NCBI GenBank assembly: GCA_003134765.1
Contig: PLCM01000015.1
Coordinates: forward strand, 65,421 to 129,420
Length of the DNA: 64,000 nucleotides
Direction of reading: 5' to 3'
Source of the DNA: Spartobacteria bacterium
Lineage (GTDB): Bacteria > Verrucomicrobiota > Verrucomicrobiia > Chthoniobacterales > UBA10450
The notes under the pieces were generated by a model that saw only the letters and a program-made list of their open reading frames with translations, ran no database searches and was not told where the DNA came from. A program made the translations under genes and the position numbers. Below are positions 1,607-63,682 of the stretch, piece by piece (position 1 is the first letter of the stretch; each line of letters starts with the position of its first letter).

Positions 1607-1690
1607 CTGTAGCCGCGCCGCTGTGCCGTGCGTGGGAGAAAAGGTCCTATCAGCAACGCGATGACACGGCCCACAGGGCCGCGGCTACAG
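1607..1690. repeat. Palindromic repeat, CTGTAGCCG...CGGCTACAG family
   Basis: The ends CTGTAGCCGC and GCGGCTACAG are exact inverted repeats. Related copies lie at 12393-12479, 15276-15356 (left end only), 51088-51156 and, inside a coding sequence, 54744-54813. The right end overlaps the last codons of the convergent gene ending at 1685. Confidence 0.7.
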
Positions 1691-2212
1691 AAGAGGGAAA
1701 GGCAACTCCAACGTCGCGCCCGGCGGAAGGCTGCGCCATTTGACGGCAAGCTCGTCGAACCGCGATCGTACCCGCGCCAGATCTTCATCCGCAAGCGGGC
1801 GCGGCTGCGGCATTCCTTTCGCGCTCGCGAAGGTCGCGGCCAGTTGGTTGAACTCCGAGGCAGTGGCCACTACGCCACCGGCGCGTTCCGCCGAAAACGC
1901 GGAGACGAGATATTCGACTTCGAGGGCTTTAATGGGCAGGGGGCCGCGCGCGGTCTTGCCGGTGGTGTCCTCGATGTCCCAGCCCTCTGCGATCAATCCA
2001 TAAAATCCACGCCGGAAACCAAGCTCCGTCTCGACTGCGTAATGGGTGAGATCATGTAATGGAAAGAACGCCGCGCGCTGGTCGTCCTGTCGCTGCCACG
2101 TGGCGGAGCCATTTTCGCGAATGCACTTCAGGACAGCGCCGCCATCAGTTCGCCTGGTGAATTGGATTTTCAAGCTCGAGGAAATTGTGAGCTGAAGTTG
2201 GAAGGTTGTCAT
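1685..2212 (-). CDS. Conserved hypothetical protein, about 175 aa
   Basis: I do not recognise a named family. The product is soluble with no signal peptide or membrane segment. It has an N-terminal beta-rich stretch, a compact motif FPLHDLTHYAVE near residue 50, an aromatic FYGLIAEGWDIED segment, and a basic-acidic helical C-terminal half. The HDLTH string could bind a metal, but that is a guess. The ATG at 2212 fits best. It and the alternative at 2239 both lie in the repeat that precedes the gene, so the repeat appears to supply the start codon. The gene converges on secA. Confidence 0.6.
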   Translation of the reverse strand: MTTFQLQLTISSSLKIQFTRRTDGGAVLKCIRENGSATWQRQDDQRAAFFPLHDLTHYAVETELGFRRGFYGLIAEGWDIEDTTGKTARGPLPIKALEVEYLVSAFSAERAGGVVATASEFNQLAATFASAKGMPQPRPLADEDLARVRSRFDELAVKWRSLPPGATLELPFPLL

Positions 2213-2333
2213 CCCGAGGCGCGCAGATTCGGAAGTCATTCTGAGCGGAGCGAAGGGGAGTCGAAGAACCCCGTCTTGCTGCCTGCGAGGTCAATCGCGG
2301 AAGCCGGGGTCCCTCGACTACGCTCGGGATGAC
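2208..2333. repeat. Repeat of the GTCATCCCGAGC...GGGATGAC family (copy 1)
   Basis: The ends are inverted (GTCATCCCGAG and CTCGGGATGAC), with inner arms around GTCGAAGAACCCC and GGGGTCCCTCGAC. The left part carries two nested starts of the unit (2208 and 2236). Nine copies of this family are spread over the window, all between genes or at gene edges. Confidence 0.8.
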
Positions 2334-4517: not shown

Positions 4518-4617
4518 GTCATCCCGAGCGCAGTCGAGGGATTCCGTTTCTTTCAGAGCGATGTCGCCCGCACCAATACGGGGTTCTTCGACTTCGCTTC
4601 GCTCCGCTCAGAATGAC
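4518..4617. repeat. Repeat of the GTCATCCCGAGC...GAATGAC family (copy 2)
   Basis: It lies between the convergent recQ and TMTC-like genes. The ends are GTCATCCCGAGC and GCTCAGAATGAC, and the inner arms are GTCGAGGGATTCCG and GGGGTTCTTCGAC. It could fold as a hairpin and act as a bidirectional terminator. Confidence 0.75.
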
Positions 4618-7591: not shown

Positions 7592-7660
7592 TGGTAGGGC
7601 GAGACTCTGTCGAGCCGTCGGCGCCCTGGCCCGGCGGCTCGACAGAGTCTCGCCCTACCA
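7592..7660. repeat. Long inverted repeat between convergent genes
   Basis: The arms TGGTAGGGCGAGACTCTGTC and its complement pair over about 26 bases around a short GC-rich loop. The element sits exactly between the ends of the AP2-like gene and the rsmA fusion and could act as a bidirectional terminator. The style is the same as other palindromic repeats in the window. Confidence 0.7.
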
Positions 7661-15363: not shown

Positions 15364-15846
15364 CTAACTGTCCAAGACGATCCTAACCTTACGATCGGCA
15401 GGCTGTGCCGCGTTGAGCTGGCTGAGAAGGGTAGGAGACGTCGGGGACCGGTTGCCTTTGGGTTCTGGCGCGGTTTCGCCCGACAACGCCGACCGCAACG
15501 CGCCTTCCACCAACTGCGCGCAGTGAATCTTCACCGGCGGCAACGGACCCAGCGGCGCCGCCAACTCTTCTCCGGACATTGATTGAGCCTCCGCCACCGT
15601 TTTCCCGGCAAGCATTTCCGTGGCGACACTGGCCACGGCGATGGCGGTCTGGCAGCCGAACGTTTGGAACGTCGCGCGATCGATTACTTTGCGGCCGCCT
15701 TCCTCCTTGAATTTCACCCACATTCGCAGCATGTCGCCGCAATCCGCGCTGCCGACCGTCCCGATCGCGTCCGCGTCCTTCATTTCCCCGAGGTTACGGG
15801 GGTTCCTGACCGCTTCCTCGATCCGGGTCTGTAAATCGTCGCTCAT
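15364..15846 (-). CDS. NifU/IscU-like Fe-S cluster scaffold protein
   Basis: The 160-residue product is an IscU-fold scaffold on which [2Fe-2S] or [4Fe-4S] clusters are built. The three ligand cysteines are present in their usual settings: GSADCGDMLRMWVKF, FGCQTAIAVASVATEML and KIHCAQLVEGALRSAL. The C-terminal 40 residues (SGETAPEPKGNRSPT...) are an unstructured extension. ATG 15846 (MSDDLQTRI) fits the family start. An in-frame ATG upstream at 15858 lies within the adjacent repeat. The operon context (rhodanese upstream, sufT downstream) fits Fe-S and sulfur handling. Confidence 0.92.
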   Translation of the reverse strand: MSDDLQTRIEEAVRNPRNLGEMKDADAIGTVGSADCGDMLRMWVKFKEEGGRKVIDRATFQTFGCQTAIAVASVATEMLAGKTVAEAQSMSGEELAAPLGPLPPVKIHCAQLVEGALRSALSGETAPEPKGNRSPTSPTLLSQLNAAQPADRKVRIVLDS

Positions 15847-15853
15847 GTCATTC

Positions 15854-15945
15854 GTCATCCCGAGCAAAGTCGATGGATCCCGTGTTGATACCTTTAACCT
15901 TAATCAGCGGGGTTCCTCGACTTCGCTTCGCTACGCCCGGAATGA
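15854..15945. repeat. Repeat of the GTCATCCCGAGC family (copy 3)
   Basis: The ends are GTCATCCCGAGC and GCCCGGAATGA, with inner arms GTCGATGGATCCCGT and GGGGTTCCTCGAC. It lies between the rhodanese and scaffold genes, and its ATGAC end is in frame with the scaffold gene. Confidence 0.75.
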
Positions 15946-15951
15946 AAGAGC

Positions 15952-17961: not shown

Positions 17962-18082
17962 GTCATTCCGAGCGAAGCGCAGCGAAGTCGAGGAAGCCCG
18001 TGGTAGAGCGTGCGACAATGCAGCGGCGCCGTTCGTTGCGCCCCGGGGTTCTTCGATTTCGCTGCGCTTCGCTCAGGATGAC
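17962..18082. repeat. Repeat of the GTCATCCCGAGC family (copy 4)
   Basis: The ends are GTCATTCCGAGCG and CGCTCAGGATGAC; the inner arms are GTCGAGGAAGCCCG and GGGGTTCTTCGAT. It fills the gap between the E1-beta and E2 genes of one operon, so it would be transcribed with them. Confidence 0.8.
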
Positions 18083-20247: not shown

Positions 20248-20283
20248 TGAGCCGAAACCGGCGCAAAGTGTTTTTTGGATCAT

Positions 20284-20364
20284 CGGAGGGATGTGCTTCC
20301 GCACGTCCTTCTTCTCATTGCGAGCCTTGCAACAGAATGGGACGTGCGGAAGCACATCCCTCCG
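20284..20364. repeat. Perfect 25-base inverted repeat between smc and E1-alpha
   Basis: CGGAGGGATGTGCTTCCGCA and its continuation ACGTCC pair exactly with the complement at 20340-20364, around a 31-base loop. It sits just after the smc stop codon and may act as a terminator or processing site in addition to being a repeat. Confidence 0.7.
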
Positions 20365-20372
20365 AGGGAAAG

Positions 20373-25752: not shown

Positions 25753-27090
25753 ATGCGAACATCTCATCTCGAAGAATTCTACTCGTTCCTCCGATTCCCG
25801 AGCGTTTCCACCGACGAACAGTATCGGGGAAAAGTCGCCGAGTGCGCGCAATGGCTGGTGAAAAAACTCGAGAGCATCGGGCTCGAAACGAAACTGGTTC
25901 CCACGCCGGGACACCCGGTCGTTTGGGCGAAGAACAAACATCAGCCCGGCCGTCGCAGCGTCATGATCTACGGGCATTACGATGTGCAGCCGCCGGATCC
26001 GCTCGAGCTTTGGGAGTCGCCGCCGTTCGAGCCGGTTTTGAAGAACGGTTACGTTTTCGCGCGTGGCGCGACCGACAACAAAGGGCAGATTCTTTCGCAC
26101 ATCCTCGGCGTCCAGGAGGCGATCGAGCAGAACGGCGATCTGCCGGTCAACCTGCATTTCGTCATCGAAGGCGAGGAAGAAATCGGGAGCGGTAATCTTC
26201 CGAAATTTCTCTCGGACAATCGCGAGGCGCTGCGGTGCGATGTTGCGGTGGTCTCGGACACCGGGATGGTCGCACGCGGCGTGCCGACGCTGAGCTACGG
26301 GTTGCGCGGGGTGACGGCCCTGGAAGTTAAAATCTCCGGCGCGAAAATGGATTTACATTCCGGCGTATTCGGCGGCGCGGTCGCGAATCCCGTCACGGCG
26401 CTCGCTCGTTTGCTCGCGACCTTGCACGACCAAAACGGTCACGTCGCCATTAAAGGATTCTACGACACGGTGAAGCCGTTGGAAGATTGGGAGCGCAAAG
26501 CGTGGCGCGAACTTCCAATCGATGGAGACAAGGCGATCCTCGCTGAAACCGGCGCGCCCGCGCTCTTTGGTGAAGAGAGTTACAGCACGCTCGAGCGCAT
26601 TTGGGGCCGGCCGACGGCCGAAATCAATGGCATCGGTGGCGGCTATCAGGGGATGGGAACCAAGACTGTGATTGCGAGTCACGCGATGGCGAAACTGACC
26701 TTCCGGCTCGTGCCAAACCAGGAAGGTGATGAAATCCTGGCGCTCGCCGAGCGGCATCTCGAAAAACACCTGCCGCCAGGCGTGACGATGGAGATAACCC
26801 GCGGCCACAGCGGACCGTGGTATCTCACCGATCCGCATTCGGATGTGGGACAAGCGGCGCAGCGCGCGTTGCGCGAGGCTTTCGGCAAAGAACCGGCCAC
26901 GATTCGTGAAGGAGGCAGTATTCCGATCGTGTCGCAATTCCGCAGCATTCTTGGCGTCGAGACGCTCCTGATGGGATTAGCCCTGCCGGATTGCCGAGCT
27001 CATTCGCCAAACGAGAATTTTCCTCTCGAAAATCTTGAAGGCGGGATTCGCCTGAACAAAGCCGTCCTCGCCGAACTGGCGAAAAAATAG
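25753..27090 (+). CDS. M20-family dipeptidase
   Basis: The 445-residue product is a two-zinc peptidase. Zinc-site motifs are MIYGHYDVQPPDP near residue 76, ARGATDNKGQ near residue 108 and the catalytic/bridging VIEGEEEIGSGNL near residue 137, followed by SDTGM and the M20 dimerisation lid domain (DLHSGVFGGAVANPVTALARLL). The closing SIPIVSQFRSILG and CRAHSPNENFPLENLEGGI carry the last zinc ligand His. This matches the carnosinase/DapE-like M20 dipeptidases. It is cytosolic, since no signal peptide is present. Confidence 0.93.
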   Translation: MRTSHLEEFYSFLRFPSVSTDEQYRGKVAECAQWLVKKLESIGLETKLVPTPGHPVVWAKNKHQPGRRSVMIYGHYDVQPPDPLELWESPPFEPVLKNGYVFARGATDNKGQILSHILGVQEAIEQNGDLPVNLHFVIEGEEEIGSGNLPKFLSDNREALRCDVAVVSDTGMVARGVPTLSYGLRGVTALEVKISGAKMDLHSGVFGGAVANPVTALARLLATLHDQNGHVAIKGFYDTVKPLEDWERKAWRELPIDGDKAILAETGAPALFGEESYSTLERIWGRPTAEINGIGGGYQGMGTKTVIASHAMAKLTFRLVPNQEGDEILALAERHLEKHLPPGVTMEITRGHSGPWYLTDPHSDVGQAAQRALREAFGKEPATIREGGSIPIVSQFRSILGVETLLMGLALPDCRAHSPNENFPLENLEGGIRLNKAVLAELAKK

Positions 27091-27098
27091 TTTGGCGT

Positions 27099-27188
27099 GT
27101 CATCCCGAGCGGAGCAAAGCGAAGTCGAGGGACCCCGTCGAACGTCGCGCGAGGCGCCACGGGATTCCTCGACTGCGCTCGGAATGAC
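27099..27188. repeat. Repeat of the GTCATCCCGAGC...GGAATGAC family (copy 5)
   Basis: The ends are GTCATCCCGAGC and GCTCGGAATGAC with inner arms GTCGAGGGACCCCGT and ACGGGATTCCTCGAC. The ATG of its right end is the likely start codon of the following gene. Confidence 0.8.
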
Positions 27189-28239
27189 GGCCAGATGGCG
27201 CGTATTGGCCATCGGATTGGCGGCCGTTGCAATCCTGACAAACGTCGCGGTTCGCGCGACCGCCGAAGAATCACTCGGCAACAAGCTCAAGAAAATATTC
27301 GCGCCCACGCCCACTCCAACGCCGCGCAAGCACTCGAAGAAAAAAGCGAGCGCGGAGAAATCGCCGACGCCGAAACCAACCGCGACGCCGGCAAAATCGC
27401 CTTCCCCCAAAAAAAAGGCGACAACGAGTCCGACTCCAACGGAAAAGTCTGAATCGAGCCCATCCGCTTCGCCCAAAAAAAAGAAATCTTCTCCCAGCCC
27501 TTCGCCGGAAACTTCTCCGAGTGGTTCGCCGCGAAAGAAGAAACGAAAAGCTTCCCCTTCGCCAAGCCCGTCTCCGGCGGAATCGCCCGCGCCTTCCGCC
27601 AGTCCAAGCGCGAGTCCCGAGGCCAGCGAATCACCGAAACCGTCGCCATCAGAGTCTGCTTCGCCCAAGAAGAAAGGTGCGCCCGCGACTATTTCTTCCA
27701 GCCAGATCTCCGGCTTCCAGAAGTATCCCGAAAACGTCCGCAAGATGGTGGAGACGGCCCTCGAACTAACCGCCCGTAATCTCGATTACAAGTATGGCTC
27801 GGCCGATCCCACCGCTGGCGGGATGGATTGCTCCGGGTTCGTCTTCTACGTCCTGAGCCAAAACGGCGTCCGGGACGTGCCGCGTGATTCGAGCCAGCAA
27901 TACGTCTGGCTGCGCAAGGCCGGCACGTTCAAGGCGGTCAATAGCCGCCACGAAGATACTTTCGAACTCGACGATCTCGTGCCCGGCGATCTGCTGTTTT
28001 GGACTGGCACTTACACCATCGAGCGCGACCCACCGATCACCCACGCGATGATTTATCTCGGCCGTGAGAAAGGAACGAACCAGCGCATCATGGTCGGCGC
28101 GAGCGACGGCCGAACCTATAAAGGTGAGTCGCGTTACGGAGTCAGCGTCTTCGATTTCAAAATCCCGAAGCCCGCGAAAACAGATGAAGGAAGGTTGACT
28201 CCAAACTTTATCGGCTACGGGCACGTCCCGGGAATTTAG
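27184..28239 (+). CDS. Secreted NlpC/P60 cysteine peptidase with Ser/Pro/Lys-rich linker
   Basis: The 351-residue product has a signal peptide (RWRVLAIGLAAVAILTNVAVRATA), then a long low-complexity spacer of KSPTP, SPSPSPS and KKK runs to about residue 165, and a C-terminal NlpC/P60 domain. The catalytic Cys is in GGMDCSGFVFYVLS (near residue 216) and the His in THAMIYLGRE (near residue 287), with DLVPGDLLFW between them. Such enzymes cut peptide stems of peptidoglycan; the spacer could span or bind the wall. The start ATG 27184 is inside the repeat's right end. A longer frame from 27097 would translate the whole repeat ahead of the signal peptide and is unlikely. Confidence 0.85.
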   Translation: MTARWRVLAIGLAAVAILTNVAVRATAEESLGNKLKKIFAPTPTPTPRKHSKKKASAEKSPTPKPTATPAKSPSPKKKATTSPTPTEKSESSPSASPKKKKSSPSPSPETSPSGSPRKKKRKASPSPSPSPAESPAPSASPSASPEASESPKPSPSESASPKKKGAPATISSSQISGFQKYPENVRKMVETALELTARNLDYKYGSADPTAGGMDCSGFVFYVLSQNGVRDVPRDSSQQYVWLRKAGTFKAVNSRHEDTFELDDLVPGDLLFWTGTYTIERDPPITHAMIYLGREKGTNQRIMVGASDGRTYKGESRYGVSVFDFKIPKPAKTDEGRLTPNFIGYGHVPGI

Positions 28240-29648: not shown

Positions 29649-29766
29649 GTCATTCCGAGCGCAGTCGAGGAATCCCGTCAATTAACTGGACGCGTTGCTT
29701 TGAAGAGATGGCCCGGGGCCAAGCTGAGAGGTGACAAGCCGTGATCTCGACTGCGCTCGGGATGAC
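29649..29766. repeat. Repeat of the GTCATCCCGAGC family (copy 6)
   Basis: The ends are GTCATTCCGAGCGCAGTCGA and GCGCTCGGGATGAC. The right end directly abuts the stop codon of the next minus-strand gene at 29767. Confidence 0.75.
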
Positions 29767-31122: not shown

Positions 31123-31283
31123 GTCATCCCGAGCGGAGCGAAGCGGAGTCGAGGGAGCCCGTGTTGCCATGAGAAGCACCGCCGTCTTCACGCATTGTTC
31201 TTAGGATTGCAGCCGGTCCGCTCACGAATCGATCGACACTCAGCGGGGTCCCTCGACTCCGCATGCGCTCCGCTCGGGATGAC
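31123..31283. repeat. Repeat of the GTCATCCCGAGC family (copy 7)
   Basis: The ends are GTCATCCCGAGCGGAGCG and CGCTCCGCTCGGGATGAC, with inner arms GTCGAGGGAGCCCGT and GGGGTCCCTCGACTCC and a 90-base centre. It lies between the convergent DUF6572-like and apt genes. Confidence 0.8.
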
Positions 31284-40754: not shown

Positions 40755-40911
40755 GTCATCCCGAGGCGCGCAGACGGCGAGGGACCTCCCAGGCGGTCAA
40801 TCGCTTCCGCGAAAAGTGGAAGCGTCCTCTCGGAACCCGCCTGAAATTTCTCGTGTGTCGTAAACTGCGGTTGCGAGGTCCCTCGGCGCGCTTCGCCAGC
40901 CTCGGGATGAC
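40755..40911. repeat. Repeat of the GTCATCCCGAGC family (copy 8)
   Basis: The ends are GTCATCCCGAGGCGCGC and GCCTCGGGATGAC, with inner GCGAGGGACCTC and GAGGTCCCTCGGC arms. It lies between convergent genes. Confidence 0.75.
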
Positions 40912-51087: not shown

Positions 51088-52414
<1,327 letters not shown>

Positions 52415-53164: not shown

Positions 53165-55060
53165 ATGTCGGAGCCGGTCCTCAATTCCATTGCCAGCGCG
53201 AGCGAGCTCGTGGTGCGGTTCGGGAATCAGGTTGTGCTCGATCGGGCGACGGCGACGATTCTCGAGGGAGAACGGGTGGGACTGGTGGGTCGAAACGGTT
53301 CCGGGAAATCGACGTTCCTCCAGATTGCGGCGGGCGTGATGCAGCCCGACGCGGGCGAGTTCAACCAACGGCGCGATCTCGTTGTCGGTTACATGCCGCA
53401 GATGTTCGAGCTGGATGAGAAAGCAACGGTGCACGCCAACATTCTCGCCGGCGCCCAAGGCGTGCTCGATTTGATCGCCGAATACGAGACCGCGCCTGCG
53501 GAAAGCGCGCGGAGCGGAATCCTGCTCGATCAGATCGCCCATTTCGACGGCTGGAACCTTGAGCATCGGATCAAGAGTTTGATCACGAATCTGCATGCGC
53601 CGGACCCGGAACGGATCGTGGCCACTCTTTCCGGCGGAGAAAAGCGGCGGGTCGCGCTTTGCCGGGCGTTACTGGCGCGGCCGGATTTTCTGATCCTCGA
53701 CGAGCCAACGAACCATCTCGATACCGGCTCGATCGAGTGGCTCGAGGATTTTCTCGCCCGTTACCAGGGGACGTGCCTCTTCGTGACGCACGACCGTTAT
53801 TTTCTCGATTTCATTGCGACGCGCGTGCTCGAACTCTCGCGGGGAAAGTTTCACAGCTACGAGGGGAACTACACGGATTACCTGATTGCCCGCGCGGAAC
53901 GTCAGGCGGTGGAGGAGATTCAGGAACACAAGCGCCAGAAGTTCCTGAAACGCGAGCTGGCGTGGGTGCGCAAGGCGCCCCGCGCCCGACGAACGAAATC
54001 GGTGGATCGCGTCGAGCGTTACTTTGAGATGGCAGGGCAGGATGCGCCGGAGGCGGAGCTGGATGTCGATCTCATCATTCCGCCCGCGCCGAAGCTGGCG
54101 AATCGCGTGATCGAATTGCGCGAAGTCGGGATGGAATTGGGCGGCCGTGCCCTGTTCCAAAATGTTTCTTTGAATCTCGCGGCCGGGGAGCGGCTTGGCA
54201 TTGTCGGGCGAAACGGGCTGGGAAAATCGACGCTCCTCAGGATCATGCTTCAGCAGCTGGAGCCGACGAGCGGGACCGTTGAGCTCGGGGCGCGGACCGA
54301 GATTAATTATGTCGATCAAAATCGGCTCCTGCTCGATGACGCAAAGACCGTCTGGGAAGAAGTGGGCGAGGGGAGCGAATACGTTCGTCTCGGCGAGGAA
54401 AACATTACTCTGCGCGGTTATCTCCGGCGTTTCCTTTTCACCGAGGAGCGGATCAACACGAAGATCAATCAGCTCAGCGGCGGCGAGCGGAGCCGCGTCC
54501 TGCTCGCAAAGATTCTCAAGCGGGGCGGCAACGTTCTCATCCTCGACGAGCCGACAAACGATCTCGATCTCGGCACGCTGCGTTTGCTCGAGGAAGCGCT
54601 CGTGGCCTTTGGCGGCAGCGTGATCGTGGTGAGCCATGATCGTTATTTTCTGAACCGCGTTTGCACCGCGATCCTCGCTTTCGAAGGGGAGGGCGTGCTC
54701 CACTACCACGTCGGAAATTACGATTATTATCTTGAGAAACGCGCTGTAGCCGGGATCGGTGATCCCGGCCCGGGAAAGCGCGCATCGGCCGGGATCACCG
54801 ATCCCGGCTACAGGAAGACGAAGCCGCGCAAGTTAAAATGGAAAGAGGAGCGCGAACTGGAAGGAATGGAGAGCGCGATTCTGGCAGCGGAAAACGAAGT
54901 CACGAGAATCGAAACGCTTTTTGCGGAGCCAAATTTCTATGTGGTGCACGCCGCCGAGCTGACGAACTTTGAAGCGGAGCTGCGCGCCGCCCGCGATAAA
55001 GTAGCGCGTCTCTACGCCCGCTGGGCGGAGCTGGGCGAAGTAGCGGGCATCTCCGGGTAG
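53165..55060 (+). CDS. ABC-F ATPase with an in-frame palindromic-repeat insert
   Basis: The 631-residue product has two ABC domains in one chain and no membrane part. Walker A motifs are GRNGSGKSTFLQIAAG near residue 45 and GRNGLGKSTLLRI near residue 350; signatures are LSGGEKRRVALCRALL and LSGGERSRVLLAKIL; Walker B motifs are FLILDEPTNHLD and VLILDEPTNDLD. A Uup-like linker and C-terminal coiled coil follow. Residues about 527-549 ([21 protein letters not shown]) are encoded by a palindromic repeat. ABC-F proteins act on the ribosome. The stop codon lies in another inverted repeat. Start ATG 53165. Confidence 0.92.
   Translation: MSEPVLNSIASASELVVRFGNQVVLDRATATILEGERVGLVGRNGSGKSTFLQIAAGVMQPDAGEFNQRRDLVVGYMPQMFELDEKATVHANILAGAQGVLDLIAEYETAPAESARSGILLDQIAHFDGWNLEHRIKSLITNLHAPDPERIVATLSGGEKRRVALCRALLARPDFLILDEPTNHLDTGSIEWLEDFLARYQGTCLFVTHDRYFLDFIATRVLELSRGKFHSYEGNYTDYLIARAERQAVEEIQEHKRQKFLKRELAWVRKAPRARRTKSVDRVERYFEMAGQDAPEAELDVDLIIPPAPKLANRVIELREVGMELGGRALFQNVSLNLAAGERLGIVGRNGLGKSTLLRIMLQQLEPTSGTVELGARTEINYVDQNRLLLDDAKTVWEEVGEGSEYVRLGEENITLRGYLRRFLFTEERINTKINQLSGGERSRVLLAKILKRGGNVLILDEPTNDLDLGTLRLLEEALVAFGGSVIVVSHDRYFLNRVCTAILAFEGEGVLHYHVGNYDYYLEKRAVAGIGDPGPGKRASAGITDPGYRKTKPRKLKWKEERELEGMESAILAAENEVTRIETLFAEPNFYVVHAAELTNFEAELRAARDKVARLYARWAELGEVAGISG
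54744..54813. repeat. Palindromic repeat inside the ABC-F coding sequence
   Basis: CTGTAGCCGGGATCGGTGAT and its near complement ATCACCGATCCCGGCTACAG form the ends. The closest relative is the intergenic copy at 51088-51156. The phase in the gene avoids the TAG in both ends. Confidence 0.8.
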
Positions 55061-55177
55061 CGCACGCGTCTCGCGTGTTGGCGACTCCGAAAGCTTTCGC
55101 GAGTCACGGACTTTCCGAAGACTGTTTTGGCGAGACGCCAAAACCAGCACGCGAGACGCGTGCGCTACCCGGAGATT
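55049..55177. repeat. Long inverted repeat supplying both convergent stop codons
   Basis: The left arm ATCTCCGGGTAGCGCACGCG TCTCGCGTG (55049-55077) and its exact complement at 55147-55175 are 29-base perfect arms. The ABC-F gene ends in the left arm, the DUF2071 gene in the right arm, each with the codons for Ile/Arg-Ser-Gly then TAG. It can also act as a bidirectional terminator. Confidence 0.8.
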
Positions 55178-63589: not shown

Positions 63590-63682
63590 GTCATTCTGAG
63601 CGAAACGAAGCGCAGTCGAAGAATCCCGGAGAGTTACCTTCAAGGTGGCGCAACGGGATCCCTCGACTTCGCTCGGGATGAC
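63590..63682. repeat. Repeat of the GTCATCCCGAGC family (copy 9), inside the S10 operon
   Basis: The ends are GTCATTCTGAGCG and CGCTCGGGATGAC, with inner arms GTCGAAGAATCCC and GGGATCCCTCGAC. It separates rpsJ from rplC and must be carried in their common transcript. Confidence 0.8.

Follow-up and report, generated by a model that had tools for sequence, protein, structure and literature searches.

The NlpC/P60 locus

We analyzed a 64,000-nucleotide stretch of a Spartobacteria bacterium (the whole stretch is called the window here), drawn from a genome, G000, of 4.05 Mb in 41 contigs. The isoleucyl-tRNA synthetase of G000 has its nearest matches in metagenome genomes of Spartobacteria and Chthoniobacterales, which marks the genome as that of a verrucomicrobium of soil type. 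Within the window, a secreted NlpC/P60 family protein (27184..28239, plus strand; PF00877, E 1.6e-11) is encoded downstream of an M20 peptidase gene (25753..27090, plus strand). The gap between the two genes is filled by a palindromic element of 90 bp (27099..27188), an inverted REP-like dimer that reads GTCATCCC...GGAATGAC and begins 8 bp after the M20 stop codon. The left half-element (27099..27138, minus strand) carries its tag, GTCAT, toward the M20 peptidase gene, and the right half-element (27159..27188, plus strand) terminates in GGAATGAC. The terminal ATG of the element (27184..27186, plus strand) appears to be the captured start codon of the NlpC gene.

Among the in-frame ATGs of the gene, the one at 27184 comes first, and the only other nearby in-frame start codons are GTG 27097, TTG 27205, and TTG 27217. 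Translation from 27184 would give a normal signal peptide (MTARWRVLAIGLAAVAILTNVAVRATA, read by eye), with MTARWR followed by a hydrophobic stretch and ATA/E. No other start provides a positively charged n-region: TTG 27205 or 27217 would drop the positive charges, and GTG 27097 would place 29 element-coded residues ahead of the signal peptide.

A family of CGTC-like palindromic repeats

The octamer GGRATGAC occurs 19 times in the window versus 4.4 expected, and most of these occurrences are outward ends of nine palindromic element copies, which read GTCATYCYGAGC and GCTCRGRATGAC. In addition to the NlpC element, there is a copy with an additional outward half (2208..2333; ends at 2208, 2235, and 2333) between the gene beginning at 1685 and recQ, a copy in the convergent interval between recQ and a TPR gene (4518..4617), a copy adjoining a NifU-type gene (15854..15946), a copy whose outward ATG is out of phase with the next gene (17962..18082), two further copies of the same CGTC-like repeat (29649..29766 and 31123..31283), a member of a related subfamily with CCTCGGGATGAC ends (40755..40911), and a copy before rplC (63590..63682). 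The window also holds strong short inverted repeats of unrelated sequence (7592-7660, 20283-20365, 54744-54813, and 55049-55176; arms of 26 to 33 nt, 97 to 100% matched), and some unrelated inverted repeats are multicopy, e.g., GGCCGGGATCACCGATCCCGGCTACA at 51131 and 54787.

We took a census of the repeat in stretches totaling 1.66 Mb (41%) of G000. A strict end pattern found 256 ends, and a looser pattern found 263, with none in the reversed control. The ends form dimers with a strong preference for one arrangement, with 96 tag-outward pairs versus 6 tag-inward and 5 direct pairs; tag-outward is our own label, which may differ from the head-to-head of the published description. The median length of the 96 tag-outward dimers was 98.5 bp. 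NGTCAT is present in 256 of the 263 ends, with T (138), C (76), G (25), or A (17) before GTCAT. The half-element stem, which compensatory changes support (CCC/GGG in 128 cases, TCC/GGA in 22, CCT/AGG in 11, and TCT/AGA in 8), opens with AT (main type, ATYCY...RGRAT), a regularity that is partly circular because the detection pattern demands AT. Folds of main-type halves have a 5-bp stem, a tandem G.A, a weak inner pair, and a loop of 5 to 6 or more bases, and those of the related GCCG type have a 4 + 4 bp stem. The terminal tag is unpaired in the half-element folds, and representative folds show three bases (CCC or TCC) after GGGAT, a possible tail.

These features suggest that the element is a CGTC-like REP, composed of two short inverted stem-loop halves with the tags outward, about 80 to 175 bp in all. 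The tag and the first stem bases would read GTCAT inward, so that each outward end becomes ATGAC. The preliminary description had stated that the repeat carries an ATG in a fixed place, and this holds, as every outward end reads ATGAC. The elements are scattered between genes, and their insertion or retention would be mostly intergenic and without regard to frame.

Seven Y1_Tnp matches were found in the genome. A single repeat end lay about 1.3 kb from one of the four loci examined, and the other three had none; element pairs flanked none of the loci examined, and from these a dedicated transposase seems unlikely. No target-site duplication could be defined, and the junctions resemble the replacement of a variable linker and not a clean insertion.

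The NlpC start codon in orthologs

The NlpC gene has matches in 33 of the 39 genomes searched, and orthologs are present in all seven of the other same-genus genomes. In genomes G001, G002, G003, and G007, the gene starts with ATG-CGA (MR), 8 bases past a conserved, promoter-like TGTGCTAnnTT box. This box is missing before the window gene. From the seven same-genus genomes, the ancestral Met would lie two codons past the repeat ATG, where the window has the GCC codon at 27190..27192 (plus strand). Genome G004 has an element of the same length in the same place and reads GGAATGAC-A-ATG-AGATGG, continuing as ATG-AGA-TGG-CGC, with the element ATG and the native ATG both in frame. The window reads GGAATGAC-G-GCC-AGATGG (GCC-AGA-TGG-CGC), and the element ATG alone remains.

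It had been proposed that the only sensible ATG of the NlpC gene is the one in the right end of the repeat, and that the start positions of orthologs should be compared. The proposal is borne out by the reading frame, the signal peptide, and the orthologs, among which the comparison indicates that the native Met was lost in the window genome and that G004 retains both ATGs. Capture of the NlpC start codon by a repeat end is thus well supported at the level of sequence. In the simplest history, an element would have landed in frame, the native ATG would have become redundant, and that ATG would then have decayed. G004 may represent the intermediate state, although the insertions in G000 and G004 may be of separate descent. 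The species order suggested by IleRS, ImuC, and PurM groups G000 with G005 and G006, so the NlpC element common to G000 and G004 would have to be explained by separate insertions, by loss, or by exchange. Transfer of the NlpC gene between G000 and G004 was considered and rejected: a tree of the full ORF joins them, but they are not grouped when the tree is built from the NlpC domain alone.

Other repeats are found at this intergenic position in relatives. A related REP (GAGGTCCCTCGCCGTCTGCGCGGCTCGG[GC]ATGA) lies upstream of an intact native NlpC box and start in G002, G007, and G003 (L024, L025, and L027), which indicates that the site has been hit repeatedly. In G009, from another genus of the family (L034), a different REP ending in GGCTCAGGATGAC directly precedes the NlpC signal peptide in frame, and an upstream ATG reads through this REP, an independent parallel.

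Element ATGs at other genes

The MazG gene (C27:94131) provides a second clear case. In G006 and G001, the MazG start adjoins the stop of the upstream gene. In G000 and G007, an element separates that stop from MazG, and the first 60 codons of the gene contain no start codon other than the repeat ATG; the match to the MazG model begins with residue 4 aligned to profile position 2. We regard start codon capture at MazG as well supported by these alignments, the native start lying upstream of the insertion in relatives that have no element. Three more genes begin at element ATGs, encoding PurM (C23:169765), the methylisocitrate lyase PrpB (C1:31804), and a secreted protein (C21:30139). For these, capture is plausible from the sequences and ambiguous. 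For PurM, the difficulty is that an ATGAC start is already present in most relatives, and for PrpB, it is that the frame of an upstream ATG continues through the element. The native start of PrpB is ATGAC in G001 and G003, and in G000 the element ends exactly there, as it does at PurM.

Other genes have an in-frame repeat ATG and a start of their own. The element ATG at 15858 (minus strand) is in frame, four codons ahead of the native ATG 15846 of the gene for an iron-sulfur scaffold with a NifU N-terminal domain (15364..15846, minus strand; PF01592), and the element ATG at 63678 is in frame, five codons ahead of the native rplC ATG 63693; both frames are open up to the native ATGs. A TolR/ExbD-type protein likewise has an element ATG three codons ahead of its native ATG. 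The native ATG is conserved among the compared orthologs of NifU and ExbD, and the native start of rplC matches the usual rplC start. The preliminary description was right that the repeat ATGs of NifU and rplC are in frame just upstream, but these genes kept their own starts (MSDDLQ/MNDDLQ and MSIGLLG), and we rejected both as captures because those starts are conserved or canonical.

The same description had the gene at 1685-2212 begin at the repeat ATG 2212, and here our analysis disagrees. This conserved gene of unknown function (1685..2173, minus strand) has in-frame repeat ATGs at 2239 and 2212 upstream, yet conservation begins at TTG 2173. Since a stop directly precedes this codon in the G007 ortholog, TTG 2173 is the most likely start, and we rejected this gene as a capture.

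In-frame copies inside proteins

Four in-frame internal copies were found in 1.66 Mb of G000, in IleRS, error-prone DNA polymerase, UvrC, and FadJ; they are absent from some orthologs, and relatives carry other linkers at these sites. Early matches inside genes had included chance LAMT codons, which a stricter pattern removed. In isoleucyl-tRNA synthetase (L058:2098-4875(-), G000:C1; L096), the in-frame element (SSSRAERSGVEGPRGKSLDVQRGSSTTLGMT) precedes TLVDRWILDRL in G000 and G007; a different insert occupies the site in G004 and G005, and a short linker occupies it in four other genomes. The error-prone DNA polymerase ImuC/DnaE2 (L049:9940-13197(-), G000:C1; L104 and L098) has its element in a hypervariable linker in G000, G007, and G004. 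The UvrC element (L009:4479-6617(-), L236) is present in G000 and G007 and is left in the RDD frame, not the LGMT frame. A FadJ-type protein (L048:8584-10839(-), L258) has an element in G000, with only a remnant (SLRSARDD) in G007, as if collapsed. UvrA of G007 (L272:8747-14647(+)) has 1966 amino acids in what seem to be two UvrA units sharing a frame, and it carries two in-frame elements that are a related copy pair. Two entry frames and two exit frames of the element are used. We saw no coding adaptation of the element, with 2.32 of 6 frames open versus 2.13 of 6 in shuffled elements.

Frame of repeat ends relative to gene starts

The ends located 300 bp or less upstream of a called gene start in 1.66 Mb of G000 (n = 93) fell into the three phases as 38/29/26. 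With a 400-kb sample of G007 added, the phases were 41/33/29 for 103 start-facing ends (chi-square p = 0.34). Gene starts were from a simple hexamer-based caller, which makes the distances approximate; phase depends on the gene frame alone. Sixteen ends were both in phase and open, versus about 16 expected (93 × 1/3 × 0.53, where 0.53 is the probability that the stretch upstream of an ordinary gene is open over the same distances). In the window, by our own tally, four of seven gene-start-facing repeats were in frame (P for at least four of seven, 0.17). Since ends are in phase no more often than by chance, starts are not a target of the repeat and capture would be a by-product; frame targeting was rejected on the phases and on the expected number of in-phase open ends. 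Of the earlier suggestion that a mobile repeat could create or lengthen N termini, the individual captures at NlpC and MazG stand on their orthologs, but the chance-level phases speak against a general mechanism.

Initiation at the element ATG

A Shine-Dalgarno (SD) motif precedes 6.8% of genes versus 3.5% in the control (G000 sample), and a TAnnnT peak lies 11 to 16 bases before starts in the same sample. The rarity of SD sites together with the TAnnnT enrichment suggests that leaderless or SD-free initiation is common in this genome. An element end that comes to lie shortly before a gene, in frame (one chance in three) and with no intervening stop, would give the gene a second possible start, after which the native start can be lost. 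The element ATG would then be used for initiation, and the scarcity of SD sites and the common leaderless-type starts in the lineage might mean that an ATG alone is enough.

In the minimum-energy folds, the ATG is base-paired in every one of the 96 dimers and sits at the base of the hairpin. No -10-like box was found at the leaderless position before 27184. With the ATG paired and no such box, initiation at 27184 could be weak. The ATG may be used poorly, or its use may rely on ribosomes that come from the gene before it, which for NlpC would be the M20 peptidase gene.

Alternative explanations

We think it probable, from the comparisons above, that a CGTC-like REP inserts blind to frame and that its in-frame ends occasionally capture start codons, as at NlpC and MazG. 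An alternative with some weight, which we nevertheless consider unlikely, is coincidence: the intergenic repeat ATG would go unused, and the true NlpC start would be GTG 27097, on the element's left edge, or else TTG 27205 or later. The chance-level phases and the burial of the ATG in a hairpin agree with this. However, the TTG starts would cost the protein its charged n-region and the GTG start would prefix it with element-coded residues, the ancestral Met of the orthologs lies just two codons past the repeat ATG, and MazG is left with no alternative start over its first 60 codons.

A second alternative is that selection retains the element in front of genes for a regulatory role, as an RNA hairpin in which the start codon is either hidden or presented. 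The NlpC element has a strong fold (-58.5 kcal/mol, z -3.9), the half-element stem is conserved through the compensatory changes given above, the ATG is at the hairpin base in every dimer, and other REPs occupy the same intergenic site in G002, G003, G007, and G009. Yet any inverted dimer would fold in this way, elements are commoner at gene ends, and the position of the NlpC element was not found to be conserved across the genus, so we hold this reading to be distinctly improbable. That the repeat prefers to insert at start codons, with ATGAC as its target and capture built into its mobility, is very improbable: elements end exactly at the ATGAC native starts of PurM and PrpB, but start-facing ends lack phase bias, 137 ends face gene 3' ends versus 99 facing 5' ends, and 7.6% of ATG genes begin with ATGAC anyway.

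Relation to known repeats

Di Nocera et al. (2013, PMC3733652) describe CGTC REPs that carry a terminal (C/T)GTC tag (with TGTC and CCTC also accepted), an 8- to 9-bp stem whose first two positions are AT, a loop of 4 to 5 bases, and a three-base tail past the stem. They are mostly inverted dimers in one orientation and mostly intergenic, with intragenic copies in DnaE2, uvrA/uvrB, and tRNA synthetase genes, and no linked transposase was found. The window repeat is similar in its CGTC/TGTC tag, AT stem base, inverted dimers, and mostly intergenic location, and in having copies inside genes for error-prone polymerase, Uvr proteins, and a tRNA synthetase. It differs from the stated stem and loop values in its main-type halves (5-bp stem plus tandem G.A, loops of 5 to 6 or more), and for this reason we term it CGTC-like. 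The exact repeat sequence had no literature match. In the passages and papers searched, we found no account of a CGTC end supplying a start codon where comparison of orthologs shows the native one to have been lost.

Rickettsia palindromic elements, of which RPE-4 and RPE-6 are CGTC REPs, are described as palindromic DNA that is translated in frame within housekeeping proteins or at their N termini (PMC10969869, PMC3733652). The window repeat resembles them, including RPE-1, in inserting in frame in protein genes. It differs in belonging to another phylum and in having no conserved coding frame, whereas the Rickettsia elements are described with a conserved peptide. The enterobacterial RU/ERIC repeats are also small non-autonomous repeats that form protein ends or parts, including N-terminal regions (Delihas 2007, PMC2759123). 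Their sequence is unrelated, and fusions to ORFs were inferred there from annotation and not from start codon loss in orthologs (PMC2759123).

Significance

In the aligned cases, a mobile palindromic repeat has apparently taken over the start of a conserved gene, and a related genome retains both starts. The limit is that, in the two genomes together, in-frame placement of the repeat is no more frequent than chance would give. In practical terms, element ends mislead gene callers about N termini in these genomes.

Di Nocera et al. also report that the ends of GTAG REPs frequently provide TAG stop codons and that N termini are among the places where REPs are found (PMC3733652). Given a CGTC tag and an AT stem base, every outward end reads ATGACG or ATGACA. 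A tentative extension, which we hold to be less likely than not, is that CGTC-type REPs donate start codons generally in bacteria, just as GTAG REPs donate TAG stops. If true, in genomes that rarely use SD sites, gene starts would be replaced recurrently and the new start would lie inside a hairpin that can control translation. Should other CGTC REPs behave in this way, the places where start-site errors and real start turnovers cluster would become predictable.
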